Shown here piece by piece: positions 33,917 through 61,115 of a DNA stretch of 64,000 nt. The notes under the pieces were generated by a model that saw nothing but the letters and a program-made list of their open reading frames with translations, was not told where the DNA came from and searched no databases. This DNA comes from a virus: positions 186,001-250,000 of IMG/VR virus record IMGVR_UViG_3300032334_002567, one strand, 5' to 3'. The position numbers were made by a program, and so were the translations under genes. Numbering within the stretch: position 1 is the stretch's first letter; the number at the start of each line of letters is the position of its first letter.

Positions 33917-34557
33917 ATATAAATATAAATCCATTTTATTGTTATGTAAAAAAAGAACACTTGTTTGGATATGATGAAAAAAGTGAAGGCTTTGAGAGTG
34001 TTCTTGTATTTGCTGCAAGAAGCGTACCAGCTAGAGCCCTTCTTTTTCACATAATGACAGAGGGTGGTGCACAAAGAGCTAATGTTCCAATATCAGCCTT
34101 AGTTCATAAAAAGGATGCAGTAAGTATACCACTAGATTATCTACAGCTATGGGATTGTTTTGGAAAAGAAATTAATGTTGTTGTTTTTGACTACTTAGTT
34201 AACAAAAGGTGTCAGGTTGTATTAAAGGACAAAACAGTTAATTGGGGAACCTATATGATGACATTTGACTGGGCGAACAACACGTACTCAGACACACCAC
34301 AAGACTATAAGAATGCACATCTAATAAAGCTTGATAATGGTTGTTTCGCTCTTCAGCCAAATAATAGAATATTTTGGAGGGATTCTAATTTTATTACTAA
34401 ACCCATAAATATTGGCGACGTACCTAAATATAAAGTGGATAATAAGATCTTCGTTTGCGAGGTATCAGATCGCTGGACTTCCCAAGATACGGATTGTTTT
34501 TATTACGATGTTATGGAAGAAAATGAACTTCAAAAAGTGGATGACAGAACAACCTGA
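33913..34557 (+). CDS. Protein of unknown function
   Basis: A 214-residue, mostly beta protein (MNININPFYCYVKKEHLFGY; VLVFAARSVPARALLFHIM; DYLQLWDCFG; LQPNNRIFWRDSNFI). The text looks like a conserved phage family but I cannot name it. Its end is overlapped by the start of the next gene. Confidence 0.6.
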   Translation: MNININPFYCYVKKEHLFGYDEKSEGFESVLVFAARSVPARALLFHIMTEGGAQRANVPISALVHKKDAVSIPLDYLQLWDCFGKEINVVVFDYLVNKRCQVVLKDKTVNWGTYMMTFDWANNTYSDTPQDYKNAHLIKLDNGCFALQPNNRIFWRDSNFITKPINIGDVPKYKVDNKIFVCEVSDRWTSQDTDCFYYDVMEENELQKVDDRTT

Positions 34558-34879
34558 AGCAGACTATATTGGGAAAGTAGCAATATTTTATATTCCCGAG
34601 AATAAGTTAACAAAATCTGTTAGAAAAGAACTTCATGATTTTTTTGTTAAAAACTATAACGCATATACACACGAAGTAAGTAAGATACAAGGTTATTGGG
34701 TCAAGCAAAACAAACTAATTAAAGACAAACACGAAAGATATGAAGTTGCTTTTGACGGAGAGCAAAATCTTAAGAAATTTGTCGGTTTTTTGTCTAAATT
34801 GTGCGATACCATAGAGGAAGATTCTATTTATTTAATTGTTGGTGATGAGTCTTATCTGGTAAGACCTAAGAAAAATTAA
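34523..34879 (+). CDS. Tagged small protein
   Basis: A 118-residue protein starting MNFKKWMTEQPEADY, one of the tag-bearing genes. Start at 34523 chosen because GGAAGAA precedes it and it begins with the tag; a longer frame from 34412 overlaps the upstream gene heavily. Body is alpha/beta (GKVAIFYIPENKL, EDSIYLIVGDESYLV). Function unknown. Confidence 0.65.
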   Translation: MNFKKWMTEQPEADYIGKVAIFYIPENKLTKSVRKELHDFFVKNYNAYTHEVSKIQGYWVKQNKLIKDKHERYEVAFDGEQNLKKFVGFLSKLCDTIEEDSIYLIVGDESYLVRPKKN

Positions 34880-34908
34880 ATTTAAACTATATTAGAATGG
34901 AGGATAAA

Positions 34909-35184
34909 ATGGCAATATTCCAGAAAATTAAAGATTGGTTTGAGAAGGTCTGTTACCCATGTTGTGAAGGCAATGAGTGCAAATGTAATACCGCACAAAA
35001 TTCTTTACCAGCACCAGAAGTTGTAGCAGATAATGTGGTTGATACCGTAGAAGAAACGCCAACACAAGCTGTGGAAGCACCAATTAAATTAGAACCTGTT
35101 AAAAATCCAAAGAAGGCTGCCGGTGCCCATAAAAAGAAACATGCCAAAAAGCCTCCAAAGCCCTCAAAGAGAAAAAAGAAGTAA
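34909..35184 (+). CDS. Small Lys-rich-tailed protein
   Basis: A 91-residue protein (MAIFQKIKDWFEKVCYPCC) with a Cys cluster, an acidic Val/Glu/Pro middle and a strongly basic end (KKKHAKKPPKPSKRKKK). AATGGAGGA precedes the ATG. The N-terminus (F..I.DWFE) is loosely tag-like. The tail suggests contact with packaged DNA; inference. Confidence 0.6.
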   Translation: MAIFQKIKDWFEKVCYPCCEGNECKCNTAQNSLPAPEVVADNVVDTVEETPTQAVEAPIKLEPVKNPKKAAGAHKKKHAKKPPKPSKRKKK

Positions 35185-35185
35185 T

Positions 35186-35443
35186 TTACTTATTTTCTTG
35201 TCTTTTGATTCTTTCGTGGTGTTGGTAAGTCATTTGACCATGATCTACTTCATCCTCATCGGCTTTTGGACCCAGCTTTTGTAAAGCATCTGCCGCAATT
35301 GGTGTAAAGTACCCAGCGGAGTAATGGCTCCTCATATACCCATCAGGATAGGCCCAGTGAGATATGCCTGCTCGTGCGGCTTTTTCAGATATTACTGGTA
35401 GCTCTTTTTTATTATCTGTGCAAAATTCTATAAATGTTTTCAA
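35186..35443 (-). CDS. Tagged small protein (TTG start)
   Basis: An 85-residue protein beginning MKTFIEFCTDNKKE from TTG at 35443, with AAAGGAAG upstream. Tag-bearing. The rest contains a SHWAYPDGYMRSHYSAGYF stretch and polar helices. Function unknown. Confidence 0.65.
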   Translation of the reverse strand: MKTFIEFCTDNKKELPVISEKAARAGISHWAYPDGYMRSHYSAGYFTPIAADALQKLGPKADEDEVDHGQMTYQHHERIKRQENK

Positions 35444-35505
35444 TTTTCTTCCTTTAAATGCTTTTTTTGTACTAGTTTAAAGCATACTTATTTATGGAGC
35501 TAACA

Positions 35506-35682
35506 ATGAATTTTAAAGATGTTATATTTTCGGACAATACCGCAGTGCCTCAAAGTCTGACAGTAACGAATGTTTCAGCATTTAATGTCTCTGATGAACT
35601 TAATATGTGCTCAATTTTGGATGTGATAAATAAAAAATTTGTTGATGGAACATACTTAGAAATAGTCTCTATGAATTCTTAG
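35506..35682 (+). CDS. Small protein, unknown function
   Basis: A 58-residue protein (MNFKDVIFSDNTAVPQ) after ATGGAGC. The N-terminus is only partly tag-like. Followed closely by a 40-residue membrane peptide. Confidence 0.5.
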   Translation: MNFKDVIFSDNTAVPQSLTVTNVSAFNVSDELNMCSILDVINKKFVDGTYLEIVSMNS

Positions 35683-35689
35683 GAGGTCT

Positions 35690-35812
35690 ATGCAGTGTTT
35701 TTTTCAAGTTTGCTTGTGTGTAATTGCTGCTTCTTTTTCTCTAGTTGTATTCTCCGCCTCTGTTGGCTTCGCAACCGCAGTTTATCGTTTTATTTTTAAA
35801 ATAGAAGAATAG
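35690..35812 (+). CDS. 40-residue membrane peptide
   Basis: MQCFFQVCLCVIAASFSL and onward: a single hydrophobic helix, ending FKIEE. The strong AGGAGG site right after the preceding gene supports translation. Stop one base before the next ATG. Confidence 0.6.
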   Translation: MQCFFQVCLCVIAASFSLVVFSASVGFATAVYRFIFKIEE

Positions 35813-35813
35813 A

Positions 35814-36431
35814 ATGAACTTTTTTGAAATATTTGATAAAGCTTATTGTATCAATTTGGACAAAAGAAAAGATAGACTACTCAATTTCGAACTACAGGTT
35901 AAAAAGTATAATTTGGGGCCATATGCGAGGTTTAGAGCCTTTGATGGCTTTAAGATGCCCACAAACCTTGATAAAGGAAATGCAGGCCTAATTAAGTCCG
36001 TAATCGCTGTATTAAAAGAATGTTTAGATGAAGGTACCAGCAAGGTACTTATTTTAGAAGATGATTGTGAGTTTAAAGAAGATATTATAAATATATACGA
36101 ATATTTTAAATATGTACCCTCTGATTGGGACATGGTCTATTTTGGTGGAAATCACAATATCCATATTGGAAAGGAACCACCAAAAAGAATAAACGAAAAA
36201 ATAGCTAAACTACATTACACTTTCACTACTCATTGTATTGCAATAAAAAGGCATATGTTTGAGCCTATAATTCAAAAAATAGGTAATTATGAATCGCCAA
36301 TTGATGTTGCTTACCAACAGTTTCAACAAACACACAACGTATATGGATTTTATCCTTCTCTTGTAAAACAAGCCTCTGGATTTAGTGACATAAGGGGCCA
36401 GCATGTTGACTATGACTGGTTGATTACGTAA
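35814..36431 (+). CDS. GT25-family glycosyltransferase
   Basis: A 205-residue protein with YCINLDKRKDR (about 11-21), FRAFDGF, KVLILEDDCEF (the acidic GT25 motif) and a FTTHCIAIKR segment. Related in type to the genes at 7155 and 58552. The N-terminus MNFFEIFDK is fold sequence, not counted as a tag. Acceptor unknown. Confidence 0.82.
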   Translation: MNFFEIFDKAYCINLDKRKDRLLNFELQVKKYNLGPYARFRAFDGFKMPTNLDKGNAGLIKSVIAVLKECLDEGTSKVLILEDDCEFKEDIINIYEYFKYVPSDWDMVYFGGNHNIHIGKEPPKRINEKIAKLHYTFTTHCIAIKRHMFEPIIQKIGNYESPIDVAYQQFQQTHNVYGFYPSLVKQASGFSDIRGQHVDYDWLIT

Positions 36432-36911
36432 TTAGTCTGAAAAGACGGCACACCAATAAAGCCTGCCCTCTTTGTCTTCTTCTACACCGAATCCAACCCT
36501 CTTATAGCTTGTCCCTAGTATATTCCATCTATGCATTGGAGACCACATCCAAGCTTCAACAACCAACTTTTCTGTTTCTTGTCCCCAAGCAATGTTCTCT
36601 CCAACTAAACTCGAATCTTCATTAACCTTAATAAGGTCTGACATGCTTGAATGATACAAAGAATTCTTTTTAACCATTTTTTGTGCGTGTTTTTGTGCAT
36701 ATTCGCACAGTTTTTTGTCAAGTGTTAATGGTTTTAGTTTTCTAGAGGTTCTTTCTCGGTTATGAGCAACCAGAAGTTTTTCTTTTGTGCTAATAATTGG
36801 AGCACTGATTTCATCTGGTATCTGGGGCGTAGATTTTTGGGGCACTTCTTTTTTTTGGGAGCTGCATCCAATTAGAACAAAAAATGCGATTAAAATAATG
36901 ATTGTTTTCAT
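36432..36911 (-). CDS. CAP-domain (SCP/PR1-like) lipoprotein
   Basis: A 159-residue exported protein. Lipoprotein signal with lipobox LIGC (C16). CAP domain: LLVAHNRERTSRKL, CEYAQKHAQKM, GENIAWG, and WMWSPMHRWNIL...VGFGVEE, the four conserved CAP segments including the His of WxxSxxHR. Bacterial CAP proteins are extracellular or envelope-bound. Likely acts at the host envelope during infection. Confidence 0.88.
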   Translation of the reverse strand: MKTIIILIAFFVLIGCSSQKKEVPQKSTPQIPDEISAPIISTKEKLLVAHNRERTSRKLKPLTLDKKLCEYAQKHAQKMVKKNSLYHSSMSDLIKVNEDSSLVGENIAWGQETEKLVVEAWMWSPMHRWNILGTSYKRVGFGVEEDKEGRLYWCAVFSD

Positions 36912-36934
36912 ATTGTATTTATTAATGTGCTAAA

Positions 36935-36943
36935 TATATATAT
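36935..36943. promoter_or_regulatory. TATATATAT element between divergent starts
   Basis: TATATATAT two bases ahead of the 36946 ATG, which has no Shine-Dalgarno, and 24 bases from the leftward lipoprotein start. Confidence 0.4.
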
Positions 36944-36945
36944 TT

Positions 36946-37107
36946 ATGAAAACTTTTAATCAGTGGCTTCAAGAAATGGTGGGGTCAAATTCGATAACGA
37001 CTTGCAAGGACAGAAAAAATCCAAATTTTCAAATTTGGGGAGCTATGTCTGACTTGGGCTGCAAGCCGGAAAAGAAAATTCCAACAATGAAATTCAATAA
37101 AAAATGA
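36946..37107 (+). CDS. 53-residue tagged protein
   Basis: MKTFNQWLQEMVGSNS, a clear tag with a candidate cut after LQE. The remainder has two Cys and a basic end. Overlaps the next start by ATGA, so it is translated together with the phospholipase-like gene. Confidence 0.65.
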   Translation: MKTFNQWLQEMVGSNSITTCKDRKNPNFQIWGAMSDLGCKPEKKIPTMKFNKK

Positions 37108-37595
37108 AACTAAAATTTACAGAGTGGCTAAAATTAGAAGAAATCGATACTCGTAATCTTAAAGATTACATGAAGACTAAGTTTGATCTAAACATAGACG
37201 AATTACCTCTTAACCCTATGGACTACGCTAGTAGAGCTGAAACGGAACCAGAGGGTCAAGGATTAGACACTCAAGCACCTTGGTACAGATACGGAAACTA
37301 TTGCGGACCAGGACCGGCATTAGCTAGTTCATGTAATAAACTTGCAACAGGAGATAAGCTTCCTCCTGCGAAGAACAGTGTTGACAGTCAATGTAAGAAT
37401 CATGATGTTGATTACTGTAAATGTGGAGTAGATTGGAAGGCTGGATTGCCGGGTGGTGGCACACCTTGTTCAAAAGAAGCCGATAAAGATTTTGTTTCAG
37501 GCCTTCAAAGATTAAGAAAAAAGATAAATCCAGAAGAAAGAAGGATAGCGGATATTATTAGGACTTATTTTACTTGGAAGAAAATATTCGGTTAG
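37104..37595 (+). CDS. Tagged phospholipase A2-like protein
   Basis: A 163-residue protein. N-terminal tag MKLKFTEWLKLEE. The PLA2 core is readable: calcium loop YGNYCGPG (63-70), catalytic helix DSQCKNHDVDYC (94-105) with H100-D101, and the second acidic helix CSKEADKDF (122-130). Conserved Cys match between the two helices. This is the same His-Asp/calcium chemistry as secreted PLA2 and the parvovirus VP1 domain; it hydrolyses the sn-2 ester of phospholipids. Combined with the tag it would be a lipid-attacking enzyme carried in the particle; inference. Confidence 0.82.
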   Translation: MKLKFTEWLKLEEIDTRNLKDYMKTKFDLNIDELPLNPMDYASRAETEPEGQGLDTQAPWYRYGNYCGPGPALASSCNKLATGDKLPPAKNSVDSQCKNHDVDYCKCGVDWKAGLPGGGTPCSKEADKDFVSGLQRLRKKINPEERRIADIIRTYFTWKKIFG

Positions 37596-39088
37596 TGATT
37601 TCTATTTTCTACTTGAGCTAGTTGTTGTCCAACAATTGGTGTTCTTGTTTGCTTTCTTAACATCTCAGGAACAAATGGTACATCGTACTTCTTAAGTACC
37701 TCTTTAAGGTTATTCGCATAAGGTGCTAAACTTGGACTTTGTAGGTCGTTATTTTTGATTGCCTTTATCACATTATCGATGTTCTGCTTGGTTGGCGGGA
37801 AGTTCAATTCTAAGTCGCCGGAATCTGTTTTCTTAATTAAGTGTTCATTGCTAAAACCTTCTGCGTTTCTAAAAAAGGAACCATCTTTATTTAAAAGCAA
37901 TACTTTATTATTATAGTAATAAGTTGCGGGGTCATGTTTAACCATAATTCCTTCATAAAGTTGAGACTGATTTCCATACCATTTTACCACAACTATTGTA
38001 TTGATTAGCTTGCTTAAAAAAGATTGAATTTTTCTTTTAAATTCCTTTTCTTTACGTATTTTCTTTAGTCCTATTACAGTGTCTCTTTGTGTTTGTAATA
38101 TGGACATCAAAGCTTCTTTTTTATAAGAACTCGGCAGTGTTTTTATTATTTCTCGGATGTAACTTCGGGTTAGATACAAATTAGGAGAAACCCTTAAAAA
38201 ATCAGCGGGTCTCAAATAATCTGTGTAGAATCTCTGATACATTAAGCTCATTGCAGGATCGGCTGCAGAGAAATTAAAGCCATTTACTTTTGACCCAGAT
38301 TTTTCTTCTTCTTGATTCATTTTCGCCACAGAAGCCAATAAATGATTGTATATTTCTAAAGCGGTTTTTGTGTCGTTATTTTTTGTAAGGCTGTAGCCGT
38401 TTGGTCCTTCAAAATATATTTCATAAACATTTTTTAATTGCTTGCCTTGAAAGTTTATGCTTGATGGTTCGATACCTACTTTGTATTCGTTGCCTTTTAT
38501 TTCAAACTTTGCTTCATAGCCTCCATGGCTGTCTGGTGGGTTTTCTTCTTCATGAGAAATTCTACGTTCTTCCTGTTCTGATTCGTGGTCACTCATTTTT
38601 TCTTGTACACAGGCGTCTATTGCTTCATCTCGGGCTTTTCTTATAGCTTCTTCCATTTCTTCTCTTCTTTCATCCATTTTATCTCGCCAATCTTGTAGAG
38701 CACTATCATATTCAGACTGAGCACTTTCTAGTTCTTCTTCCCAATTAGCAACTGCCTCTTCATGTTCCTCATCTGATGACGAGTCTTCTCTTTCTGGTTT
38801 GGGGTTTTCTTTTTCCCATTCCTCTCCATTTATGTGTTCAAAGTCTGGGTCTTCATCTGGCTCATCATATATGGGTTCGTCATAAACATCTTCATAACTA
38901 ATGTCATCACCCGCATCCATACAATCTTCATAAGCACTATCATGATCAAATTCTTCTCCTTCGAATTCTTCTGATTCACCAGGTCTTTTTTTTAGTTTGA
39001 TTTTGTCGAGTGGTAATTGAGAGGCACTACGCAAACCTTCCCAGAATATTTCGCCGTTATTACTTAGCCATTCACTGAAGTTGAACAT
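37592..39088 (-). CDS. Tagged paralogue 1 of a three-member family (with acidic insert)
   Basis: A 498-residue protein. N-terminus MFNFSEWLSNNGE fits the tag. Residues about 40-195 are an extremely Asp/Glu-rich, probably disordered and coiled-coil insert. The C-terminal 300 residues form the family domain shared with 57387 and 60057: YEIYFEGPNGYSLT, a NHLLASVAKM helix, VNGFNFSAADPAMSLMYQRFYTDYLRPADFLRV, and LYLTRSYIRE. Function unknown. Overlaps the phospholipase-like gene tail to tail by four bases. GAGGAAT site. Confidence 0.75.
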   Translation of the reverse strand: MFNFSEWLSNNGEIFWEGLRSASQLPLDKIKLKKRPGESEEFEGEEFDHDSAYEDCMDAGDDISYEDVYDEPIYDEPDEDPDFEHINGEEWEKENPKPEREDSSSDEEHEEAVANWEEELESAQSEYDSALQDWRDKMDERREEMEEAIRKARDEAIDACVQEKMSDHESEQEERRISHEEENPPDSHGGYEAKFEIKGNEYKVGIEPSSINFQGKQLKNVYEIYFEGPNGYSLTKNNDTKTALEIYNHLLASVAKMNQEEEKSGSKVNGFNFSAADPAMSLMYQRFYTDYLRPADFLRVSPNLYLTRSYIREIIKTLPSSYKKEALMSILQTQRDTVIGLKKIRKEKEFKRKIQSFLSKLINTIVVVKWYGNQSQLYEGIMVKHDPATYYYNNKVLLLNKDGSFFRNAEGFSNEHLIKKTDSGDLELNFPPTKQNIDNVIKAIKNNDLQSPSLAPYANNLKEVLKKYDVPFVPEMLRKQTRTPIVGQQLAQVENRNH

Positions 39089-39091
39089 AAT

Positions 39092-39403
39092 TTATTCCTC
39101 TACAAAAAAAGCTTTCTCCCACCAGTCATCGTTTATCTGTTGGAAGCCCGCAGCCAAATATTCAGCAGTTTTGTCTTTGCTAACAAATTTCGCATGACCT
39201 GCACCGTCATAAGCAAGGTACATTGAAGTATTTGGAATTCTTGCAATAAAATTGGATCCCTGATTCATTACCTTCCCAGATTGATTTATCGTGGGTGGAG
39301 ATTTCTCAAACTGCATATCAACTGCAGCTACAATTTGATCTTTAATTTTCACCGGATGCGGCAAAGTGAAGCTTGCCATTTCTATAAATTGTTTAAATTC
39401 CAT
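39092..39403 (-). CDS. Tagged small protein
   Basis: A 103-residue protein starting MEFKQFIEMASFTLP (tag, candidate cut after FIE). Beta-rich body (SNFIARIPNTSMYLAYDG) with NDDWWEKAFF. The TATATAAAT element touches the start codon and no Shine-Dalgarno exists. Three bases separate it from the 39088 gene. Confidence 0.65.
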   Translation of the reverse strand: MEFKQFIEMASFTLPHPVKIKDQIVAAVDMQFEKSPPTINQSGKVMNQGSNFIARIPNTSMYLAYDGAGHAKFVSKDKTAEYLAAGFQQINDDWWEKAFFVEE

Positions 39404-39404
39404 A

Positions 39405-39413
39405 ATTTATATA
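39405..39413 (-). promoter_or_regulatory. TATATAAAT element abutting the 39403 start
   Basis: On the minus strand: TTAATATATAAATT then ATG. Fits an AT-rich -10 for a leaderless mRNA. Confidence 0.4.
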
Positions 39414-39442
39414 TTAACAATAGAAAAAAAATGGGGGTATGA

Positions 39443-40184: not shown

Positions 40185-41420
40185 ATGAATTTTAAACAAT
40201 GGCTCCTTACAGAAGAGCGTCAATCAATGGGTGCATCTATCCCCATGCCAGATGAAGTACAAATTCTATCCAATCTGTTTAGTAGTTTTGGAGCTAAATT
40301 GTATGCTGTTGGTGGAGCTATAAGAGACTACTTATACCATATATTCCACGATAGACATATTCCTTACAACCCCAAAGACGTAGATTTAACCACAGATCAA
40401 CCACCAGATCAAGTTACAAGAATACTTAGCTCTCCAGCAGCAGTTCAGCATGGGATTAGGGTCTTACCTAAGGGAGAAAGCTTTGGAGTTATCAGTGCTA
40501 TTATAAATGGCAAAGAATTTGAGATCGCAACCTTCCGAACAGAAGTCTATGATGCTGCCACGGGTGATGGCAGAAGACCAGATAGTGTTCAATACAGTAC
40601 AGCCGCTGAAGACGCCAAGCGTAGAGACCTTCACATAAACGCATTGTTCTATGATCTTCATAGCAAAGAAATACATGATTACAATGTAGATGAGAATGGA
40701 GAGGGAGAAGGATTTAAGGACATTAGGAACAAAAAAGTTAGAGTTGTAGGAGATCCTTTTGAGAGATTTAGAGAAGATAAGCTTAGAGTTTTAAGGCTTG
40801 TCAGATTCTTTTGTAGGTTTAATGAGGACGTGATAACCAGTCACTTAGATTCAAGAACATTATCTGCCGTAGATAACTTCAAGGATTTGAAGGGAGTTAG
40901 TGGCGAAAGAATAGCAAATGAATTTATTTCTGGACTTAAGACTTGTAAGAGTACAAAAAACTACATTTTAAGCTTCAAGTCTTTGGGGTTGATACCAACA
41001 ATATTTCCCGGCTTAAATGTTAATACTTCTGAAATGGATGCTATGGACTCTTCAAGAAACTCAATAGCAGTCACTGCTTTTTTACTCAGAGACAATGATA
41101 TAAAAGTTATTAAATCTAAGCTAAATTCACTCAAGTACTCTAACGAATTTATAAACACACTTTCTTTGGTGCTCATGGCAGCTTACAAATTAGATAAGTC
41201 TAATTTTATTCGTTTGTTAAGAATGAGAGATAATCTAAATGATAGCTTAAAAAGTTCGCTTGTTGAATTCGGTAAAATAAGTGGTCTGGAAAGAGAAATG
41301 AGTCATTTTGTACATTACACTCAAGTCACAAAATCAGAAGACTATATGCATCTACAGAATGAAAAAAGAGGAGAGAAGATGAGTGAAGATGAATACGAAA
41401 ATTATAAGGAAAATTCATGA
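40185..41420 (+). CDS. Tagged tRNA CCA-adding enzyme / poly(A) polymerase family
   Basis: A 411-residue class II nucleotidyltransferase. Tag-like N-terminus MNFKQWLLTEE. Catalytic core: AVGGAIRDYL (41-50), the DxD metal site in PKDVDLTT (D65, D67), RRDLHINALFYD, and the RVVGDPFERFREDKLRVLRLVRF neck typical of CCA-adding and poly(A) polymerases. It would add or repair tRNA 3' CCA; both tRNAs in this window lack encoded CCA. The C-terminal third is diverged. The tag suggests the enzyme may be packaged and injected. Confidence 0.88.
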   Translation: MNFKQWLLTEERQSMGASIPMPDEVQILSNLFSSFGAKLYAVGGAIRDYLYHIFHDRHIPYNPKDVDLTTDQPPDQVTRILSSPAAVQHGIRVLPKGESFGVISAIINGKEFEIATFRTEVYDAATGDGRRPDSVQYSTAAEDAKRRDLHINALFYDLHSKEIHDYNVDENGEGEGFKDIRNKKVRVVGDPFERFREDKLRVLRLVRFFCRFNEDVITSHLDSRTLSAVDNFKDLKGVSGERIANEFISGLKTCKSTKNYILSFKSLGLIPTIFPGLNVNTSEMDAMDSSRNSIAVTAFLLRDNDIKVIKSKLNSLKYSNEFINTLSLVLMAAYKLDKSNFIRLLRMRDNLNDSLKSSLVEFGKISGLEREMSHFVHYTQVTKSEDYMHLQNEKRGEKMSEDEYENYKENS

Positions 41421-41908
41421 ACTCTTTCATTTCTTGGCTAGAAAATAGAGATAGAAAAGAACTCATACTAATGAGAGGTGTTTCATCATCGGGTAAAAGC
41501 ACTGTAGCTAAAAGTTTGGTTGGCGGTGGAAAGATATTCTCTACAGATGACTTTTTCATGCAGGGAAATAGGTATGTTTTTGACCCAAAAAATATTGGTA
41601 CAAACCACAAACTAAACCAGAGCAGAACAGAAGAAGCTATGAAACAGGGTATTAGTCCAATTATAATAGATAATACTAATACTGAGTCTTGGGAGATGAA
41701 ACCTTACGTTTTATTGGCCGATAATTATGGATACTCAATAAAAATAGTAGAACTACCACCTTTAGACATAGAAGAGTTGATGAGACGACAAGAGAGTAGA
41801 AGATCTTTTAATAAGGCTTTGCCTAGAAAGTCCTTGGAGCGGGCGATAGAGCGCTATCAACACAATGTAAGTGTAGACGATATTCGAAATAGTTCGCCTC
41901 CTTTTTAA
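41417..41908 (+). CDS. Tagged P-loop kinase (polynucleotide-kinase/N4BP2-like)
   Basis: A 163-residue P-loop NTPase. Tag-like MNSFISWLENRDRKE, then Walker A GVSSSGKST (21-29), a STDDFF strand, IIIDNTNTE (kinase switch), and LMRRQESRRSFNKALPR with lid arginines. The pattern resembles N4BP2-type and T4 Pnk-type kinases that phosphorylate nucleic-acid 5' ends. It directly follows the CCA-adding enzyme with an ATGA overlap, which supports a role in RNA end repair with the RNA ligase. Confidence 0.82.
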   Translation: MNSFISWLENRDRKELILMRGVSSSGKSTVAKSLVGGGKIFSTDDFFMQGNRYVFDPKNIGTNHKLNQSRTEEAMKQGISPIIIDNTNTESWEMKPYVLLADNYGYSIKIVELPPLDIEELMRRQESRRSFNKALPRKSLERAIERYQHNVSVDDIRNSSPPF

Positions 41909-41910: not shown

Positions 41911-42498
41911 ATGTGTTTATTTGATGCCTTAATCCTTTTATATTGTTCTCCAATTATACTGCTTTATTTTTTGATGTGCTCAACCATACCTTTCATCAGG
42001 GTAGGAGAAATAAAGAAGGGTAAGGGTGTAGATTTGTTTATTTGCCGGGATATAATCCACTCAGACTTTATTTTTAAATCTAGTCTTTGGAGTGAAGTTT
42101 TTGAGCCAAAAGGCGAATACATTAAAATCGGTTGGGGAGACAGAAAAATATTCTTAGAAACAAAGGTTTGGGCTAATCTAAGAGCCTTTGATGTAATGAC
42201 AGCATTTGTCGGTATCAATAAAACAGTTTTAAGAGTAGAGTTTTTGGACACAGTGCCAGAAGGCTGTGTCAAAATGGAAATAGATGACTGCCAACTAGAA
42301 GTGATTAAAATCCACGTTAACCAATCTTTTAGTGGTAAACCTATAAAGAAGCAAAGTTGGCACTGTGAACGTGGAGACTTTTACGAGTCTAAGTTGAGAT
42401 ACAATTGTATAACAAATTGCAATAACTGGGTTAATCGTGCTCTCTTCGTATGCAGAGCAACCAATAGAGTTTGGTGTCCACTAAGTTTATACTTTTAG
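41911..42498 (+). CDS. DUF2459-like membrane-anchored protein
   Basis: A 195-residue protein with an N-terminal membrane helix (about 5-24). IKIGWGDRKIFLETKVWANL, TVLRVEFLD, CQLEVIKIHVNQSF, GDFYESKLRYN and TNCNNWVNRAL follow the order I recall for DUF2459 (TIGR02117), an exported family with a conserved GWGD and a CNxWxN cysteine segment. Function unknown; envelope location likely. Confidence 0.72.
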   Translation: MCLFDALILLYCSPIILLYFLMCSTIPFIRVGEIKKGKGVDLFICRDIIHSDFIFKSSLWSEVFEPKGEYIKIGWGDRKIFLETKVWANLRAFDVMTAFVGINKTVLRVEFLDTVPEGCVKMEIDDCQLEVIKIHVNQSFSGKPIKKQSWHCERGDFYESKLRYNCITNCNNWVNRALFVCRATNRVWCPLSLYF

Positions 42499-42692
42499 TG
42501 CTTTTTCTTTTTGTGATTTTTCTTTTTATGTTTTTTCTTGAGGCTGTTGCGACTAGCCTTTACATAAACTTGATCCGACCCAGTTTGATTCGCTAGTGGA
42601 GGATGAGTTCCTATACCGCCATATTGGGGTGGGTAAATTCCAACTATTCCTTCTCCAAGTCTGCTTTTTAGAAATTCAAAAAATGTTTTCAT
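42495..42692 (-). CDS. Tagged small Lys/His-rich protein
   Basis: A 65-residue protein: MKTFFEFLKSRLGEGIVG is the clearest tag in the window, with LGE-G as an ideal prohead-protease-type cut. A Pro/Gly/Tyr middle leads to a Lys/His tail (LKKKHKKKNHKKKKH). Comparable in design to small DNA-binding internal head proteins. Coupled to the upstream gene by ATGA. Confidence 0.7.
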   Translation of the reverse strand: MKTFFEFLKSRLGEGIVGIYPPQYGGIGTHPPLANQTGSDQVYVKASRNSLKKKHKKKNHKKKKH

Positions 42693-43053: not shown

Positions 43054-43140
43054 ATGACAGACTTAATGATATTAAATTATTTGGCCTTTTTTGCGTTTGT
43101 TTTAGTTCTATTAACTTGGATACATTTCAACAATGATTAA
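43054..43140 (+). CDS. 28-residue membrane peptide
   Basis: MTDLMILNYLAFFAFVLV, a single hydrophobic helix. Its stop overlaps the start of the next gene (ATGATTAA), compatible with coupling. Weak ribosome-binding site. Confidence 0.35.
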   Translation: MTDLMILNYLAFFAFVLVLLTWIHFNND

Positions 43141-43567
43141 ATTTAGTGTATGGTTAGAAAACAAGATTAAAGCTATTCGAACAGCTAGTGATGCTGAGTT
43201 GGACCAAGTTGTCAAGGGAGCACCTTACACTTCTCCTATGTTAAGAAGAATTAACTATTTAACAAATAATGGGAAACCGTTCGATCCTTCTAGTCCGGTA
43301 AATGATTACTTTCAACATTATGTTGGCGTTAACAAAACAAGATCTAGAAAAGCAAATAAAGATAGAGCCTGGGCTTTAGGGCTGGAAGTGCCAGAAGAAG
43401 ATAGAGAAATAATTCGGGTCGGGGGCATTGAAAAACCCAGCAGTGCGGTTCCTTATCTTAAACCAGATCACATAAAAACAATTACTAGGCTGGGTGCAGG
43501 AAAGCAAAAGCCCAGAGATGCACAAAGATTTGTAGGTACTTACAAAAGATTATTTGGCGAAAGATGA
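43133..43567 (+). CDS. Tagged protein, unknown function
   Basis: A 144-residue basic protein starting MIKFSVWLENKIKAIRTAS. Strong tag match with a possible cut after WLE. Body rich in Lys/Arg (NKTRSRKANKDRAWALG). No family recognised. Coupled to the ADP-ribosyltransferase-like gene by ATGA. Confidence 0.65.
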   Translation: MIKFSVWLENKIKAIRTASDAELDQVVKGAPYTSPMLRRINYLTNNGKPFDPSSPVNDYFQHYVGVNKTRSRKANKDRAWALGLEVPEEDREIIRVGGIEKPSSAVPYLKPDHIKTITRLGAGKQKPRDAQRFVGTYKRLFGER

Positions 43568-44280
43568 AAACATTCAAACAATACCTAGAAGATCGTCAAA
43601 TAATGATTTTTTCTACTAGACCGGTAGAGTTATATCATGGTTCAAACACTGGAGCCGATAATAGTGCTTTAAATAGCTTGTTAAAAGATGGCATTAAACC
43701 AACAGTAGCTCAAGGACATGGCCAAGGATCAGGTTTTTATGTATGGTCAGATAAAAACAGTGCCATCAACCACACTAAAGCCATAACCTCAGGCTCTATT
43801 ACAACTAATGCTAAGACAGACGGTCTTCCAATGATAGTAACAGTCGAAGCCATAGCAGACCCAGAAAAATGGGATTTAGATTATGAATCTAATAAACGAT
43901 CAATCGTTAATTGGCTACATGATAATTTTGAAAAACTTCAACCGCTATTGAAACCAGAAGACAAAGTTCAACTAAGGTCTAAACAGAATAGAGAAATCGT
44001 AAACAATAGAGATGAAAAAATAATGTCAAAGGGTGTAAGTGTTTCTTTAGAGACTTACAAAACACTATATGCTCAGAGTGAACCTAATATTCGGGACGGA
44101 GAGGTTATAGCACCAATTATAAATAAGCTACAACAAAAAGACCCTCAAACTGTACATAAATTCGAAGAACTATTTTTTGCCAACATGAAGCCAGGGGTTG
44201 CAATAAAGTATGTTGGCAGTGAAATATTAAGACCCAAAAGAATAGAGATATTTAAAGATGGTCAATGGGTTCAAGCTTAA
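43564..44280 (+). CDS. Tagged ADP-ribosyltransferase-like protein
   Basis: A 238-residue protein. Tag MKTFKQYLEDRQ. VELYHGSNTG (21-30), LLKDGIKPT and GHGQGSGFYVWSDKNSAINH (51-70), then LPMIVTVEA, reproduce the start of DUF3990/ART-type mono-ADP-ribosyltransferases: a strand with Y-H-G-(S/T), a G-x-GFY turn and a following helix. The catalytic acidic residue cannot be assigned with certainty. T4 Alt is a packaged, injected ADP-ribosyltransferase, so a tagged one here is a striking functional parallel. Toxin-like or RNA-modifying activity are alternatives. Confidence 0.65.
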   Translation: MKTFKQYLEDRQIMIFSTRPVELYHGSNTGADNSALNSLLKDGIKPTVAQGHGQGSGFYVWSDKNSAINHTKAITSGSITTNAKTDGLPMIVTVEAIADPEKWDLDYESNKRSIVNWLHDNFEKLQPLLKPEDKVQLRSKQNREIVNNRDEKIMSKGVSVSLETYKTLYAQSEPNIRDGEVIAPIINKLQQKDPQTVHKFEELFFANMKPGVAIKYVGSEILRPKRIEIFKDGQWVQA

Positions 44281-44648: not shown

Positions 44649-45032
44649 TTATTCTGGTTTTGAAGAGTAGTGATTTCCACTTCTTGTCATTCTTGACCAT
44701 GAAGAGAAATCAGAAGATCTTAGCTTGCTACCTTTTTCAGCTAATCCAATAGCTTTACTAACTGCTTCTTTTATTTTGGATTCTTCTTTTAATCCATATT
44801 CTAAAGTTCTTTTAATTTCAAGAAAGACTTTTAGCAACTCACTATTTAATTCTACAAAGTTTGCTATTCTTTCGTCTTTTTCATCTATCATGTCTGCGAT
44901 TTGACGCAAATGATGTGTATGAGAAACCTCTGATTTGAGTGTGCCCGCTGGAGGAGTGCGTGGAAGGCCAATATCCCCGGTCGGCGGTACATTTTCGGAT
45001 GATGATTCTAAAAATTGCTCAAAACTTTTCAT
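44649..45032 (-). CDS. Tagged coiled-coil protein
   Basis: A 127-residue protein starting MKSFEQFLESSSENVPPTG; tag with an ideal FLE-S cut. A Pro/Gly/Thr linker leads to a helical coiled coil (about 48-100). Preceded by ACAGGAG and TATATAAAA. Function unknown; candidate internal head protein. Confidence 0.7.
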   Translation of the reverse strand: MKSFEQFLESSSENVPPTGDIGLPRTPPAGTLKSEVSHTHHLRQIADMIDEKDERIANFVELNSELLKVFLEIKRTLEYGLKEESKIKEAVSKAIGLAEKGSKLRSSDFSSWSRMTRSGNHYSSKPE

Positions 45033-54631: not shown

Positions 54632-54632
54632 A

Positions 54633-55289: not shown

Positions 55290-55293
55290 TGTA

Positions 55294-55302: not shown

Positions 55303-55337
55303 CTATCATAATATATCTAAATTAACAGGGGAAATAA

Positions 55338-56762
55338 ATGCCATATAGACGTTATTCAATATTAAAAGGACCAGCAGAAGACAATAAAACATTAATACAA
55401 AATATTGCTAGCCCCAAGACTTCTGGGCCTTATTTGCCTATGGAACTAGCTACTATTTATAATTTTCCATCTGGCTTCAATGGCTCGGGTCAAAAAGTAG
55501 CATTTATTGAATTAGGCGGTGGATTTGTACAGTCTGATTTAGATGCCTTTTTTGCTTCTTTTGGAATAACCGCACCTACTGTTCAATTTGTTTCTGTAAA
55601 CGGTGCACAGAACCTTCCAACAAATGCAAATTCTGATGACGTAGAAGTAATGTTAGATTTAGCTGTTACTATTGGAGTCGCTCCCGGTATAACTCCAATT
55701 GTTTATATGGCTCCTAATTCGATTCAAGGGTTTGTAGGAGCTATAAATAGAGCTGTAACAGACGCAGTAAACATTATAAGTATATCGTGGGGAGCACCAG
55801 AGCCCTATTGGAATAATACTGAATTAGCTATGATGAATGCAGCTTTTCAAGCTGCTGTTAATGCTGGGATATCTGTCTTTACTGCCTCCGGAGACGCAGG
55901 AGCTAGCGATGGTTTAAGTGGCTTGAATGTTGATTTTCCAGGCAGTTCTCCTTTTGTGACTAGTTGTGGTGGTACAACTTTAAATGCTAGTCAAAATACT
56001 TACTTATCAGAAACTGTTTGGAATAATTCTACTTATTCTTCAACAGGTGGTGGATTGAGTGCGAAATTTGGACTCCCCACATATCAGATTAATGCGGGAG
56101 TAAAGAATAATACAGGAGCAAATTCGGTAAGAAGAGGCGTTCCAGACGTTGCAGGAAATGCAGACCCAGATACTGGCATAATAGTTCCTGTTGATGGTGC
56201 CAATTACATTGTAGGCGGCACAAGTGCTGTGGCTCCTTTATGGGCAGGGCTCACGGCCGTTCTTAATCAAGGTTTGGGTAGGAATTTAGGTTTCTTGAAT
56301 CCAATAATATATCCTTTATTTTTAGATCATCGAGGCGACCCTGCTACACCGCTTCACGATATTACCTTAGGCAACAACAATGGCTATACAGCTAAATCTG
56401 GCTGGGACGCTTGCACCGGTTGTGGAAGTCCCAATGCACAAGTTCTTTATAATCTACTTTCTTCTTCACCTACTCCAACCCCCACCCCCACAGCAACACC
56501 AACTCCCACTCCAACAAGAACAAGAACTCCTACCCCCACTCCAACAAGAACAAGAACTCCTACCCCAACTCCAACAAGAACAAGAACTCCTACCCCAACT
56601 CCAACAAGAACCCCAATTCCAACAAGAACACCAACCCCTACACCAACTAGAACAAGAACACCGACGCCAACTCCAAGGTCTACAAGAACTCCAACACCCA
56701 CCCCAAGGGTCATGAGAACACCAGCTCCAAGAATACTCAAGAAAAAAAGAGATTCAAAATGA
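55338..56762 (+). CDS. Sedolisin (S53) family serine-carboxyl peptidase with Pro-Thr-Arg tail
   Basis: A 474-residue protein. The catalytic domain (about 30-375) has the sedolisin triad: E103 and D107 in VEVMLD, D186 in ASGDAG, S296 in GGTSAVAP, with the calcium-site text [10 protein letters not shown]...GWDACTG near the end. No inhibitory pro-domain and no signal peptide are visible. Residues about 378-465 are a low-complexity tail of [10 protein letters not shown] repeats ending in a basic KKKRDSK. A secreted or virion-borne protease is inferred. GGGGAAATA site; coupled to the next gene by ATGA. Confidence 0.9.
56511..56610 (+). repeat. 30-bp in-frame tandem repeats in the sedolisin tail
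   Basis: Three near-identical 30-bp units (start CCAACAAGAACAAGAACTCC) at 56511, 56541 and 56571, plus a partial fourth, encoding [10 protein letters not shown]. Coding minisatellite prone to copy-number change. Confidence 0.85.
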
Positions 56763-57412
56763 AAAAATATATCGCTATTTTATCGCTGTTACTAATTATT
56801 ATTATTGGATATTTCTGCATAGAAAATCACGAATCATATAGCAAAGAAGAAATTACTTTCACTATAGACAAACCCTATTTATCAACAGTAAAGGGTCTAG
56901 CAACAAAGAACTCTTTAGAGAAAATGGTAGAAGAAAATGATGGTATGCTTGTTTACAAGAACTGGGAGAATTTTGATATTGAAGTGCCCCAAAGAATATT
57001 GAGAATAAAAGAATATAAAGTACATGGCAAACTCAGATTTACGGTAGAAAAAACAGATCATGATCTTGGACAAATTAAATTACCATTTATACAAGAAATA
57101 CATTTAGACAACCACATCTTTGACATAAGCACTAAACTAGTTTCACCACAAAAACACGTACCATCCTACAACAAGACCATACAAATAAGTCCGCTCTTTG
57201 AAGACAACAATAAGATCGCTCAAAAAACTCATGTAAAAATAAGCAGTGAACTTAAGATAAAGAAATTAATACCAATATTTTTCAAAAAATTTATGGACGA
57301 TAAGGTAGAGCAAACCAACCAAAAAGATATAGACCAACTCAAGAACAATATATTAAATATATCTAATCAAAAAAGTATATTAACTTTTAAGCTACAACCT
57401 CAAGGGATTTAG
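56759..57412 (+). CDS. Membrane-anchored protein, unknown function
   Basis: A 217-residue protein with one N-terminal membrane helix (about 5-22, [13 protein letters not shown]), the rest beta-rich and facing outward by charge ([10 protein letters not shown]...). Coupled to the sedolisin gene by ATGA, so it may be the anchor or partner of that protease. Overlaps the convergent gene by 26 bases. Confidence 0.6.
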
Positions 57413-58481
57413 AAGGCTCGTTTTGTAGCCATGTAGAAAAAGGCCCAGAAGGCTTATAGGTTTTAAGTACCTCTTCAAAGTTACGACTATAAGCCGCTGC
57501 ATTTGTGGGATGAGAGATACCCCTCATAGTAGCCATTCCTGATGGAAGAGGTATCGAAACTCCTGTTGCTTTTATATTTTCTATTGCATGTAATACTTCA
57601 TCTATTTGGCTCTTGGTAGGAGCCGCAGTGAGCTTAAATTTAGGAAACTCACCTTTAATTGAGGTATTTCTTATTATATCATTATGGTGTACATCTATCA
57701 TGTTCAGTTTTTTATCTTTTAAAACAAACATCTTAACAAAATTGGTAAAAGACAGTGGCGGTCCAACTGCAACTATAAAACCTACAACTTGTTTCATACT
57801 ATTTGACGCATGATCTACGCCATTAAAAGCAACAATTCTATTTACCATTTTATTTAAAAATGCCGTTGCTGCTCTATCGACCATTTTTTCTTTTCTTGCA
57901 TCATTTATTCCTTTATCTGCTTCTTTATTGTTGTCTGCTATTTGCCCCAAAACATTTTTCTTATCTGGACCACTCAACCCAGACATAAGTTGTCTAATGT
58001 ACGGTTTCTTTAAGTACAGCTGTGAATTCACCCTGAGATAACCAGCAGGTTTTAGATAATCTTTGTAAAATTTTCTATACATTAGAGCCATCTTAGACTC
58101 GGCCGGGGTGAAGACAAATCCTTGTACATTTTTTTCGACATCTACCATTTTTACTACCGATGCCAGCACATGGTCATAAACGCTTTTTGCAACGCCGGGA
58201 TTATTTTTATTTGCTGTAAGGAATCCAGTTGGACCATGAAAACTTATGTCATAAACTTTTTCTAAGATTTTTCCAATGAATTTTTTATTTTGTAAAGATT
58301 TTATGTCTACGGTGTAATCGTCTTCGCCTATCTTAAACTTGCTAACATAGTTTGCTTGACCTCTGTTGTCAAAAAAACTCGTCAAATTAACTTTATCCAA
58401 TGGTAGAATGCTTGTATCTCTTGCAACTTCCAGATAGTCACAAAGAATCTCTTCAAACTCGAACCAATTTCTAAATTCCAT
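57387..58481 (-). CDS. Tagged paralogue 2 of the three-member family
   Basis: A 364-residue protein. N-terminus MEFRNWFEFEEILCDYLE is tag-like (AGGAAAA before it). Family domain: YDISFHGPTGFLTANKNN, VYDHVLASVVKM, VQGFVFTPAESKMALMYRKFYKDYLKPAGYLRV, LYLKKPYIRQLM, then a variable C-terminal part. SISTER proteins at 37592 and 60057. No known fold recognised. Confidence 0.75.
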   Translation of the reverse strand: MEFRNWFEFEEILCDYLEVARDTSILPLDKVNLTSFFDNRGQANYVSKFKIGEDDYTVDIKSLQNKKFIGKILEKVYDISFHGPTGFLTANKNNPGVAKSVYDHVLASVVKMVDVEKNVQGFVFTPAESKMALMYRKFYKDYLKPAGYLRVNSQLYLKKPYIRQLMSGLSGPDKKNVLGQIADNNKEADKGINDARKEKMVDRAATAFLNKMVNRIVAFNGVDHASNSMKQVVGFIVAVGPPLSFTNFVKMFVLKDKKLNMIDVHHNDIIRNTSIKGEFPKFKLTAAPTKSQIDEVLHAIENIKATGVSIPLPSGMATMRGISHPTNAAAYSRNFEEVLKTYKPSGPFSTWLQNEPSKSLEVVA

Positions 58482-58514
58482 GCTTTTCCTAATATTTTCT
58501 ATTATTTTGTAATA

Positions 58515-58523
58515 TTTTATATA
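58515..58523. promoter_or_regulatory. TATATAAAA element between divergent genes
   Basis: Minus-strand TATATAAAA between the tagged 58481 gene and the rightward 58552 gene. Confidence 0.4.
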
Positions 58524-58551
58524 CACTTTCTCTTATACATTTAGGTGTAAT

Positions 58552-59868
58552 ATGGAACATATATTTCAAAAAGAACAATTTGGCGAAGATTGGTTCACCT
58601 CTCCTGATCTTTATTCCCGTATGGTTAAAAAAGCAATAAATGGGAGCATATTTGTTGAGGTGGGTTCTTGGAAAGGCAAATCTTCTTCCTATATGGCCAC
58701 AGAAATAATTAACTCAAATAAGGACATACAGTTCTTTTGTGTTGATACTTGGGAAGGCAGTATAGAACATGAAGGAATGGAATTAGATAATCTTTATGAA
58801 ACTTTTTTAAATAACATGAAACCTTTAGAGTCTTATTATTTTCCTTTAAAAGTCACATCAATAGAAGCAAGTAAAAAGTTTAAGGACAATTCCTTAGATT
58901 TTGTATTTTTAGATGCTTCTCACGAATATGAAGATGTTAAAGCGGATATCTTGGCGTGGCTACCCAAAGTAAAACCGGGCGGAGTTCTCGCTGGTCATGA
59001 TTATTACCAAGAAACTGATTACTTTCCGGGTGTAAGTAAAGCAGTAGATGAAGTTTTAAACAACTTTGAAATTGTTGATAATTGTTTTGTGTTTTACAAA
59101 GACAAGCTAAGAAACTTCCCATCAGTTAATTTTATAAGCATAGAAGAAAGCCAACACAGAAGAGATTTATTAAAAAAGAAGTTCAATTCTTATGGTATCA
59201 AAAATACAACAGGATATGTTTTTGAAAGATATAAAGAAGGTGATTGCAACCTATTTGGAGAAATGATTATTGATCTAAAAACAGAAAGTAAAGGACCGGT
59301 AACATCTCACTTAAAAGCAATCAAAGATTGGTATAATAATACGAACGAACCTTATGCATTTTTCTGTGAAGATGATTTAAGCCTAGAAACAGTTAAATAT
59401 TGGAACTTTACTTGGGAAGAATTCTTTGCTCGACTCCCCAAAGATTGGGGTTGTGTTCAACTTGCTTGGATACGTGATGAGTTTTTCAAGTTCGGATACA
59501 AACTAAGAAACAGATGCTGGTGTGATTGGTCTGGGTGTGCCTACCTATTAAGCAGAGAACACGCTAAGAAGCTAATAGAATCATACCACTATGACGATAA
59601 CTTTTACCTAGACTTCAAAGGATCAGACACAGATGCAAGAGAAGATTGGGCTAAAGTACCAGTTATAGAAACAGTAATCTTTTCCCCAGTTACAAAGGTG
59701 TACTCTTTTCCAATGTTCGTTGAAGACGTAATTCTTTGTAACTCTACTTACCAAGAAGGCCAAGGAGATATGCACTTTGGCTCACATCACAACACAATAG
59801 AATTTTGGAAGAATATAGGTAAATATGCTTCTTTAAATGAACTTGTTGATCATTCTATTTTGCACTAG
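58552..59868 (+). CDS. SAM methyltransferase fused to GT25-like glycosyltransferase
   Basis: A 438-residue two-domain protein. Residues about 1-180: class I methyltransferase (Methyltransf_24 type) with FVEVGSWKGKSSSYMA (motif I), FFCVDTWEG and DFVFLDASHEYEDVKADI...KPGGVLAGHDYY. Residues about 190-438: GT25-like domain with NFISIEESQHRRDLL, a PYAFFCEDDLSLE acidic motif and GCAYLLSREHAKKLI. The fusion suggests sequential methylation and glycosylation of one glycan or carrier. No Shine-Dalgarno worth noting. Confidence 0.85.
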   Translation: MEHIFQKEQFGEDWFTSPDLYSRMVKKAINGSIFVEVGSWKGKSSSYMATEIINSNKDIQFFCVDTWEGSIEHEGMELDNLYETFLNNMKPLESYYFPLKVTSIEASKKFKDNSLDFVFLDASHEYEDVKADILAWLPKVKPGGVLAGHDYYQETDYFPGVSKAVDEVLNNFEIVDNCFVFYKDKLRNFPSVNFISIEESQHRRDLLKKKFNSYGIKNTTGYVFERYKEGDCNLFGEMIIDLKTESKGPVTSHLKAIKDWYNNTNEPYAFFCEDDLSLETVKYWNFTWEEFFARLPKDWGCVQLAWIRDEFFKFGYKLRNRCWCDWSGCAYLLSREHAKKLIESYHYDDNFYLDFKGSDTDAREDWAKVPVIETVIFSPVTKVYSFPMFVEDVILCNSTYQEGQGDMHFGSHHNTIEFWKNIGKYASLNELVDHSILH

Positions 59869-60037
59869 CAGCTATCGTTTCTTTCAACTTTTGATTCTCA
59901 GTCTTTAAGAACTTAATCTGATTTTCCATGTCGGTAATCGCACGAATAATCCTATAAACCTGATTGCTCTTTTCTTGCTCATAGGTATTGGTAGCAAGAC
60001 GCTTTAATTCATTCATATCATCTAAAGAAATAGGCAT
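59855..60037 (-). CDS. Small coiled-coil protein
   Basis: A 60-residue protein: MPISLDDMNELKRLATN, ending in a leucine-heptad stretch (MENQIKFLKTENQKLKETI). AGGAGGA site. Overlaps the convergent fusion gene's end by 14 bases. Confidence 0.6.
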   Translation of the reverse strand: MPISLDDMNELKRLATNTYEQEKSNQVYRIIRAITDMENQIKFLKTENQKLKETIAASAK

Positions 60038-60056
60038 AAATCCTCCTGTATTACCA

Positions 60057-61115
60057 TTAAGATAGTACAGCTGGAACAGAACTGGGAAAAGATAATTTGT
60101 ATCTATCGAGAATTTTTTGTAAAAAAATAGCTGTTTGGTTAGGACTTCCTTCCCAAGAATCTATGGACTTCTTGATAGAAGCCAAAATAGGTTCTATTTC
60201 GCTCTTTGTTGCAGGAGGCAATAGTTCGAAACGGCCATTGTCTGCAGACTGGAAAAAATCCTTATAAGGAATGGAATAATCCCATCCAGTACCATTCTGT
60301 ACTATTATTACTTTAGCTAATCCATCTGAAGTATGAAGTTCTTTTAAAATTCCAATTGATCGTGGTCGGTTTGCCCAACCATCAGTTCCATGAGAAGCAA
60401 AAGGAACTATGTGACCTATCATGCGTTTCAAAGTAGGTTCTGCTTGTCTGTTCAAAGCTTTTAAATTTCTTATTTTTTTAAGCCCTTCTTTTTCTGATCT
60501 TAAATTATCTCTTATTTGTTTCGCTACTTTAGGCTTTTCTTCTGCTTTTAAAAGTTCACGGAGATAATTTTTTCTAACAATGAACCCTCCCGAACCTTTT
60601 ATGAATCCATTTGGTCTCAAGTACTCTTTATAGAACTTGTCATAAATTAAAGCCATTTTGCTTTCTTGAGGACGAAAAACAAAACCATTTACCTCTCTAC
60701 CTTCTTCTTTTTCTCTTTTCATCATCTTCCATATAGAAGCTAATAAGTGGTCATAAACTTGCCTAGCCGTTGCAGCATTATTTCCTCCAGTAGTCTGGAA
60801 ACCTTTAGGCCCATGAAACGCAACACTAAAAAGATTGTTAATATCAATCCAACGTTCCACAGAAACACCGTCAGTTTTTGTTACCGGCAATTGATCATTT
60901 GTTCTTTCCATTTCTACTTTATAAGGAACTCTGTCAACCTTAAAGGTCGAATAATAATTATCTGGTGGATCAATATTAGAGATATCGTCCTCATATTCAT
61001 CATCGTAATTATCGCTATCAGGAGCAAAGCCTATTCCAAGCTTAACGCTTCCTGTAGGCAATAGGTTTGGGTCTCTAGCCTCTATTGTTATCAACCACTC
61101 TTTAAAACTTATCAT
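60057..61115 (-). CDS. Tagged paralogue 3 of the three-member family
   Basis: A 352-residue protein starting MISFKEWLITIEARDP, a clear tag (candidate cut IE-A). After an acidic linker (DNYDDEYEDDIS) comes the family domain: FSVAFHGPKGFQTTG, VYDHLLASIWKM, VNGFVFRPQESKMALIYDKFYKEYLRPNGFI, and IVRKNYLRELL. C-terminus variable. TATATAAAA sits next to the start and no Shine-Dalgarno is present. Confidence 0.78.
   Translation of the reverse strand: MISFKEWLITIEARDPNLLPTGSVKLGIGFAPDSDNYDDEYEDDISNIDPPDNYYSTFKVDRVPYKVEMERTNDQLPVTKTDGVSVERWIDINNLFSVAFHGPKGFQTTGGNNAATARQVYDHLLASIWKMMKREKEEGREVNGFVFRPQESKMALIYDKFYKEYLRPNGFIKGSGGFIVRKNYLRELLKAEEKPKVAKQIRDNLRSEKEGLKKIRNLKALNRQAEPTLKRMIGHIVPFASHGTDGWANRPRSIGILKELHTSDGLAKVIIVQNGTGWDYSIPYKDFFQSADNGRFELLPPATKSEIEPILASIKKSIDSWEGSPNQTAIFLQKILDRYKLSFPSSVPAVLS

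Follow-up and report, generated by a model that had tools for sequence, protein, structure and literature searches.

Repoila 1994 and Mullaney & Black 1996 are reportedly the sources for the capsid-targeting sequences (CTS) of the phage T4 proteins IPI, IPII, IPIII and Alt. Residues 1-10 of IPIII (MKTYQEFIAE) are sufficient for packaging in T4; mutations at residues 4 and 7 affect targeting and those at 8 and 10 processing, and the protease gp21 cuts after L/I-x-E (PMC9026906). The injected proteins IPI-III, which counter restriction, have nothing but the leader in common (PMC12373910). Here we analyzed a window of 64,000 nucleotides, positions 186,001-250,000 of the 381,443-base virus record IMGVR_UViG_3300032334_002567, in which many otherwise unrelated proteins open with a short shared N-terminus, hereafter the tag (coordinates are those of the window, and "genome" marks coordinates of the whole record). 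The tag is real, occurs genome-wide, is kept in the clade and is associated with head genes. We consider it very probable that this shared N-terminus is a T4-type capsid-targeting sequence serving an expanded cargo system, from which we infer packaging, cleavage and injection of the tagged proteins. The novelty lies in the scale, the breadth and a consensus that makes cargo readable from sequence; in open-access papers, no literature describing such a tag in this clade was found.

The likeness to T4 lies in a 10-20-residue N-terminal leader on unrelated bodies, the leader alone being common to the cargo as in the IPs and Alt, in a gp21-family protease and a gp23-type head, present here in close relatives, and in the conserved tag positions (4, 7, 8, then Glu), which are those defined by mutation in T4. 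The systems differ in that there are ~50 candidates here against 4 in T4, that Trp is favored at position 7 and followed by E-N-[KR]-E with a less fixed cut site, and that the tagged genes extend over most of the genome, with RNA-repair and other enzymes among the putative cargo. phiKZ and SPN3US also have many internal head proteins and a distant gp21 homologue that cuts after Glu, their ejection proteins being processed by gp175/gp245, but the propeptides are mostly long (often >100 residues) and no short common leader has been described (PMC5694885, PMC10052503). The P1 Dar and polyvalent injected proteins are likewise head-borne anti-defense cargo, although in other phages and with another assembly route. 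We know of no short FxxWL leader among these proteins.

The gene set consisted of 581 genes from a simple home-made codon and ribosome-site caller, blind to the motif. The strict pattern M-x(1-4)-F-x-x-W-[LIFM] is found at 24 of the 581 N-termini, where 0.28 are expected from internal positions and 0.50 from shuffled N-termini (maximum 4 in 1000), and in 1 of 1734 internal Met-anchored segments used as a control. A profile was built and refined on the strict-pattern proteins of the record, T4 proteins not being used, and the proposed scan of the whole proteome with it detected 38 tagged proteins at q=0.001 (0.6 expected) and 49 at q=0.005 (2.9 expected), q=0.005 being the level passed by 0.5% of internal decoy segments. 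Under the strict threshold, the profile matches N-termini at ~140x the rate of protein interiors. Phe occupies its position with a frequency of 0.93, W/F/Y follow three residues on (0.97), and L/I/F stand at the following position (0.86). A chance origin, or an effect of start-codon choice on short hydrophobic N-termini selected by eye, is a notion to which we assign practically no probability; a few members are marginal or TTG-started (35443), but for the set as a whole it is refuted by these counts (24 strict matches versus 0.3-0.5 expected, 38 profile matches versus 0.6) and by the same logo in relatives.

The sequence-only reading had listed 16 such N-termini, all of which are present at the starts it gave; 15 of the 16 pass the q=0.005 threshold, which makes 15 of the 114 genes of the window versus ~0.6 expected. 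The remaining one, 35443(-), is weakly tagged, needing a TTG start and having a low profile score of 5.1, but its paralogue at genome 20326(-), with a body 67% identical, carries the tag MKTFIQWAGESKRE. Placing the tag on about 15 proteins at 34523-61115 was right as to the tag but too narrow as to its extent, the set being ~50 and spread genome-wide. The bodies are unrelated, as had been claimed: the 50 best proteins, counted after four profile matches that were membrane-like or otherwise doubtful had been removed by eye, fall into 46 body families, with one paralogue group of four members and one of two. This total is approximate because the caller is home-made, four matches were removed by eye, and the called start is wrong for a few tagged genes (those at genome 32707, 333143 and 64576 have the tag downstream of it).

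Tagged genes are located throughout genome 12-260 kb and 323-347 kb. The tail module has none (0/20), the genome 268-323 kb block has a chance-like 2/121, and none of the polymerases, helicases, SSB, RecA, RNR and baseplate proteins of the record is tagged, which favors the capsid-targeting reading. At C-termini, tags show no enrichment in the record and a mild one in relatives, partly via dubious short open reading frames. Tag-like motifs at both ends are seen in three proteins (L132 8266-8763 (-), window 20495-22777 and window 57387-58481), which recalls the two-ended processing of T4 Alt.

The acidic residue that had been noted by position 9-14 is borne out. Over residues 9-15 the Glu content is 19.7% in the tagged set, compared with 6.3% in untagged proteins (p=5e-17) and 5.4% in those untagged ones whose N-termini are hydrophobic, and it falls to background by residues 19-25. 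This peak and fall are what a gp21-type cut site would be expected to give. An [LIVMFA]-x-E motif lies within residues 7-24 of 32/45 tagged proteins versus 34% of untagged ones (p=1.7e-6); the cut site is supported and not pinned down, because the exact spacing is only modestly non-random given the Glu excess. With F, W and L at i, i+3 and i+4, the tag could also form the hydrophobic face of an amphipathic helix that targets the membrane, chaperonin or a replication compartment instead of the head, and the N-terminus of T4 gp23 does send proteins to GroEL. We regard this explanation as highly unlikely: residues 9-18 are net acidic (-0.72 vs -0.03 in untagged proteins), unlike most membrane-binding helices, the replication proteins lack the tag, and the relatives have a tagged head gene while the tag positions match the T4 CTS. 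When the T4-blind profile was run on 274 T4 proteins, gp61.1 ranked first and IPI second. The top match is encoded by T4 gene 61.1 (NC_000866 18966-19130(-), MKTFKEFIKED), annotated as hypothetical, which makes gp61.1 a candidate uncharacterized internal protein of T4.

Some 40 close relatives, at 50-73% identity, were retrieved from IMG/VR with the terminase as query. In the pieces of relatives that were fetched, 73 of 996 proteins score as tagged versus 5 expected, and their anchored logo, [STN]-F-K-E-W-L-E-N-[KR]-E, equals that of this phage (frequencies in relatives: F 0.90, K 0.42, E 0.42, W 0.58, L 0.59, E 0.40). Since the relatives were chosen by means of this phage's own profile, the core positions of the logo are partly selected; no such selection acts on the flanking residues not covered by the profile (Lys at -2 and the later N, [KR] and E), and these agree between the phage and its relatives as well. 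Tagged orthologues include the CCA-adding enzyme (L109, 67% identical), the kinase (L131, 64% identical), an HD-like protein (33%), the 144-aa repeat protein (69%) and a DUF5872-like protein, and in the ART-like pair with L150, residues 1-10 are identical at an overall identity of 53%. Phages often exchange gene ends, and some tags are near-identical (the MKTF.. forms), so that one might see in the tag a relic of recombination that copied 5' ends between genes and has no sorting role. This we find barely credible, given the same degenerate pattern across ~46 body families and in relatives, the retention of the tag in orthologous bodies at 33-69% identity, and its avoidance of tail and early-block genes.

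By its gene content, which includes a terminase resembling T4 gp17 (genome 4213-6039; phmmer E 4e-36; phrog_2 7e-46), a baseplate wedge protein (genome 366,307) and replication genes, the record is a T4-like jumbo phage. In 11 of 14 relative records a Peptidase S77 (gp21) match is found at E 1e-26 to 1e-29, and in the same 11 a gp23 match at E ~1e-85 to 1e-90, ~1-2 kb from the gp21-like gene; the remaining 3 have neither, and these records may miss that region. The relatives' order of portal-size gene, protease, scaffold-size gene and capsid is that of T4, the portal and scaffold being assigned from size and order. VLLE|NQ (the bar marks a possible cut here and in the N-termini below) is invariant in their capsid protein and stands ~33 residues ahead of a VRR.YPQLIA block, close to the T4 gp23 cut position in a by-eye comparison with T4. 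By capsid protein, the closest deposited relative is LR756511, an uncultured 595-kb phage whose capsid protein is 79.6% identical to that of relative G012. Next to the portal gene, on the opposite strand, lies a family of ~115-195 aa linked by reciprocal BLAST hits and tagged in eight relatives, with N-termini that include MKTFQQYLNIKE, MKTFSQFVGLKE, MKTFKQYVRVRE and MRKFVEYVKLRE; LR756511 also appears to have a tagged portal-adjacent gene, its start having been reassigned by eye. Extra tagged genes stand downstream of the capsid gene in G012, G004, G005 and G006.

The portal-adjacent family resembles a core protein, which is relevant to another explanation, namely that the tag binds the scaffold core and that the majority of tagged proteins act as structural helpers in assembly or in the core, are then degraded or retained in the head, and are not injected. 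Such an account would fit the many small tagged proteins of unknown function and the fate of gp22 and gp67, core proteins of T4 that gp21 cuts up (PMC9026906). We hold it to be unlikely, although worth serious attention, since full enzymes with no obvious assembly role are tagged (CCA-adding, kinase, NUDIX) and the CTS-bearing IPI-III of T4 are delivered by injection and target host restriction (PMC12373910). As a separate observation on the capsid protein, ~108 aa of a 587-aa protein at genome 28923-30686 (L017 9991-10311) are 38% identical to residues 139-236 of the relatives' major capsid protein; the similarity perhaps reflects a common insertion domain.

Upstream sequences were also compared. 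ATATATA or TATATAA occurs <=70 bp upstream of 19/50 tagged genes, where dinucleotide shuffles give 3.0 +/- 1.7 (maximum 7), of 37/387 other genes outside two special blocks and of 0/121 genes in the 268-323 kb block. TATATA-type elements also precede most portal operons in relatives, as judged by eye, and we infer that TATATA may be the late promoter of the clade. Unlike TATATA, the late promoter of T4 in its literal form, TATAAATA, shows no enrichment. The element TTGTACCCT is found <=70 bp upstream of 56/121 genes in the genome 268-323 kb block (L015, L021, L022) and nowhere else, tagged genes included, and is probably an early promoter element.

The match to T4 CTS positions, the rank of IPI, the head genes of relatives and the promoter-like element together support the capsid-targeting interpretation, and a number of results weigh against it. 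With Tyr at position 4, IPII and IPIII come no higher than 25-26 among the 274 T4 proteins, and Alt, which is packaged in T4, ranks 97. The phi-x-E spacing is modestly above composition, being reached by 31 of 2000 tail shuffles, and 13/45 tagged proteins have no [LIVMFA]-x-E. Untagged genes also have TATATA upstream (38/406, shuffle mean 15). In the RaK2-like jumbo phage CBB (KU574722), picked as an experimentally anchored test with a published virion proteome, the pattern occurs 23 times versus 20 in the control, and the tag is therefore not universal in T4-like jumbo phages. Finally, direct searches of the record detected no portal, gp21-type protease, scaffold or gp23-type capsid gene. Single T4 sequences were too weak as queries for head genes. 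The gp21-like prohead protease that the earlier reading had proposed to look for was not detected in this incomplete record but is present, over the cut-off, in 11/14 relatives. The record starts in a (GTTGGT)20 repeat (stretch L016 1-118) and ends in ~2 kb of repeats (L025 12.9-15.4 kb). Its left part runs collinear with G012, in which the head module is found past the point where this record stops; the record is accordingly incomplete, and the missing head module probably reflects assembly breaks in repeats.

If the tag acts as a capsid-targeting sequence, its aromatic face (Phe at ~3-4, Trp/Phe/Tyr at +3, then Leu/Ile) would dock each protein on the scaffold core during assembly of the prohead core. 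After shell formation, a gp21-family protease would cut after the nearby Glu and release the mature protein inside the head, DNA would be packaged around the freed protein, and both would then be delivered at infection. Enzymes of RNA repair and of nucleotide or ADP-ribose metabolism would be among the ~50 loaded proteins, together with lipase-like proteins, small Lys-rich ones and many unknowns, and the set may serve in head assembly, counter-defense and take-over ahead of phage gene expression. For two of the enzymes, alignments indicate that the tag is an extension preceding the catalytic domain, because similarity of the CCA-adding enzyme to known enzymes begins at about residue 25-39 (at 25-32 for solved enzymes, the best-covered matches) and AAA_33 covers residues 16-148 of the kinase from profile position 1, placing the start of its P-loop domain at 16. 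Other tagged bodies are a second PolyA_pol protein with a tag-like start at genome 340,477, a NUDIX protein (E 1.5e-15), proteins with weak HD, DUF5872, LigT-like and M90-like matches, a GP88 protein, Lys-rich peptides and a four-member paralogue family.

CCA-adding enzymes of jumbo phages have been read as RNA repair (PMC7824862), and from this together with the injected anti-restriction proteins IPI-III of T4 an injected repair and counter-signaling kit is plausible by analogy. We favor, by a little, the bolder proposal that ~50 proteins, including complete RNA-repair and ADP-ribose/nucleotide enzymes, are head-loaded by one degenerate code and form a time-zero counter-defense kit whose bodies are swapped between phages. 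If true, few phage genomes read so far would have revealed a protein cargo as large, the T4 CTS would be extended from a few internal proteins to ~50, and enzyme delivery would be suggested as a further use of large capsids. The protein cargo of huge T4-like phages could then be predicted from the DNA sequence alone, so that dozens of genes per genome now labeled "hypothetical" would become injected effectors and anti-defense candidates open to testing, and for metagenomic phages whose hosts are uncultured there would be a concrete prediction of the proteins that enter the cell with the DNA.

Within the window, the first tagged gene, 639..911 (+), encodes a 90-aa protein (MKTFREWQLKTNE|SADY; profile score 13.5) with a late-promoter-like ATATATA ~21 bp upstream, and 20495..22777 (+) a 760-aa protein (MLGFIEYLENYNE; score 6.3) with a weak KOW-like match and the tag-like FSDYLRIVE near its C-terminus. 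The next is 34523..34879 (+) (118 aa; MNFKKWMTE|QPEA; score 14.8), followed by the weakly tagged, TTG-started 85-aa protein of 35186..35443 (-) (MKTFIEFCTDNKKE) and by a 53-aa protein at 36946..37107 (+) (MKTFNQWLQE|MVGS; score 17.2). The PLA2-like protein of 163 aa at 37104..37595 (+) begins MKLKFTEWLKLE|EIDT (PF08398 E 2.4e-5; score 14.2). A head-borne protein of this PLA2-like kind would be unusual for a phage. The tagged paralogue A (498 aa, 37592..39088 (-), MFNFSEWLSNNGE, score 17.7), placed in its family by paralogue alignment, has no relative in the viral-contig search. Beside it, 39092..39403 (-) encodes a 103-aa protein (MEFKQFIE|MASF; score 13.0) with ATATATAA ~11 bp upstream.

The CCA-adding enzyme (411 aa, 40185..41420 (+), MNFKQWLLTE|ERQ; PF01743 E 1.6e-23; phrog_2244 2.5e-40) overlaps by 4 bp the gene of the P-loop, polynucleotide-kinase-like kinase (163 aa, 41417..41908 (+), MNSFISWLENRDRKELILMRGVSSSGKS; AAA_33; phrog_505/2071). 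PDB searches with this kinase and with the PLA2-like protein gave nothing significant. A Lys-rich peptide of 65 aa follows at 42495..42692 (-) (MKTFFEFLKSRLGE|GIVG, tail KKKHKKKNHKKKKH; score 9.0), then a 144-aa protein at 43133..43567 (+) (MIKFSVWLENK; score 15.1) and a 238-aa protein at 43564..44280 (+) (MKTFKQYLEDRQ; score 14.8), called ART-like by its LYHGS...GSGFYV motifs; the predicted structure of the latter was too poor to use (pLDDT 32). The 127-aa protein of 44649..45032 (-) (MKSFEQFLE|SSSE; score 15.3) has ATATATAA ~32 bp upstream. Paralogue B (364 aa, 57387..58481 (-), MEFRNWFEFEE, score 14.6) carries the tag-like FSTWLQNE near its C-terminus, and paralogue C (352 aa, 60057..61115 (-), MISFKEWLITIE|ARDP, score 19.2) has ATATATAA ~11 bp upstream; no convincing PDB match was found for the paralogue family, which weakly resembles domains within large multidomain phage proteins.

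Paralogue C sits between two untagged genes, 59855..60037 (-), with a homologue downstream of the major capsid protein gene in G006 (tblastn E 4.5e-12), and 61590..62009 (-), with homologues just downstream of the major capsid gene in G012, G004, G005 and G006 (tblastn E 1e-24 to 5e-31). By these homologies, the window carries part of the relatives' post-capsid neighborhood, a head-operon context beside paralogue C. The right end of the window holds low-complexity repeats at 63656-63795. Two further N-termini are shared by other genes of the record: (D)GPIYSMLSGKP, on about six neighboring genes at genome 265.7-269.5 kb (L014 16237-19487, L015 530-1063), and MLVLSRKKDE.., on two small proteins (window 3910-4086 (-) and genome 182789-182980 (+)) that look CsrA-like by eye.

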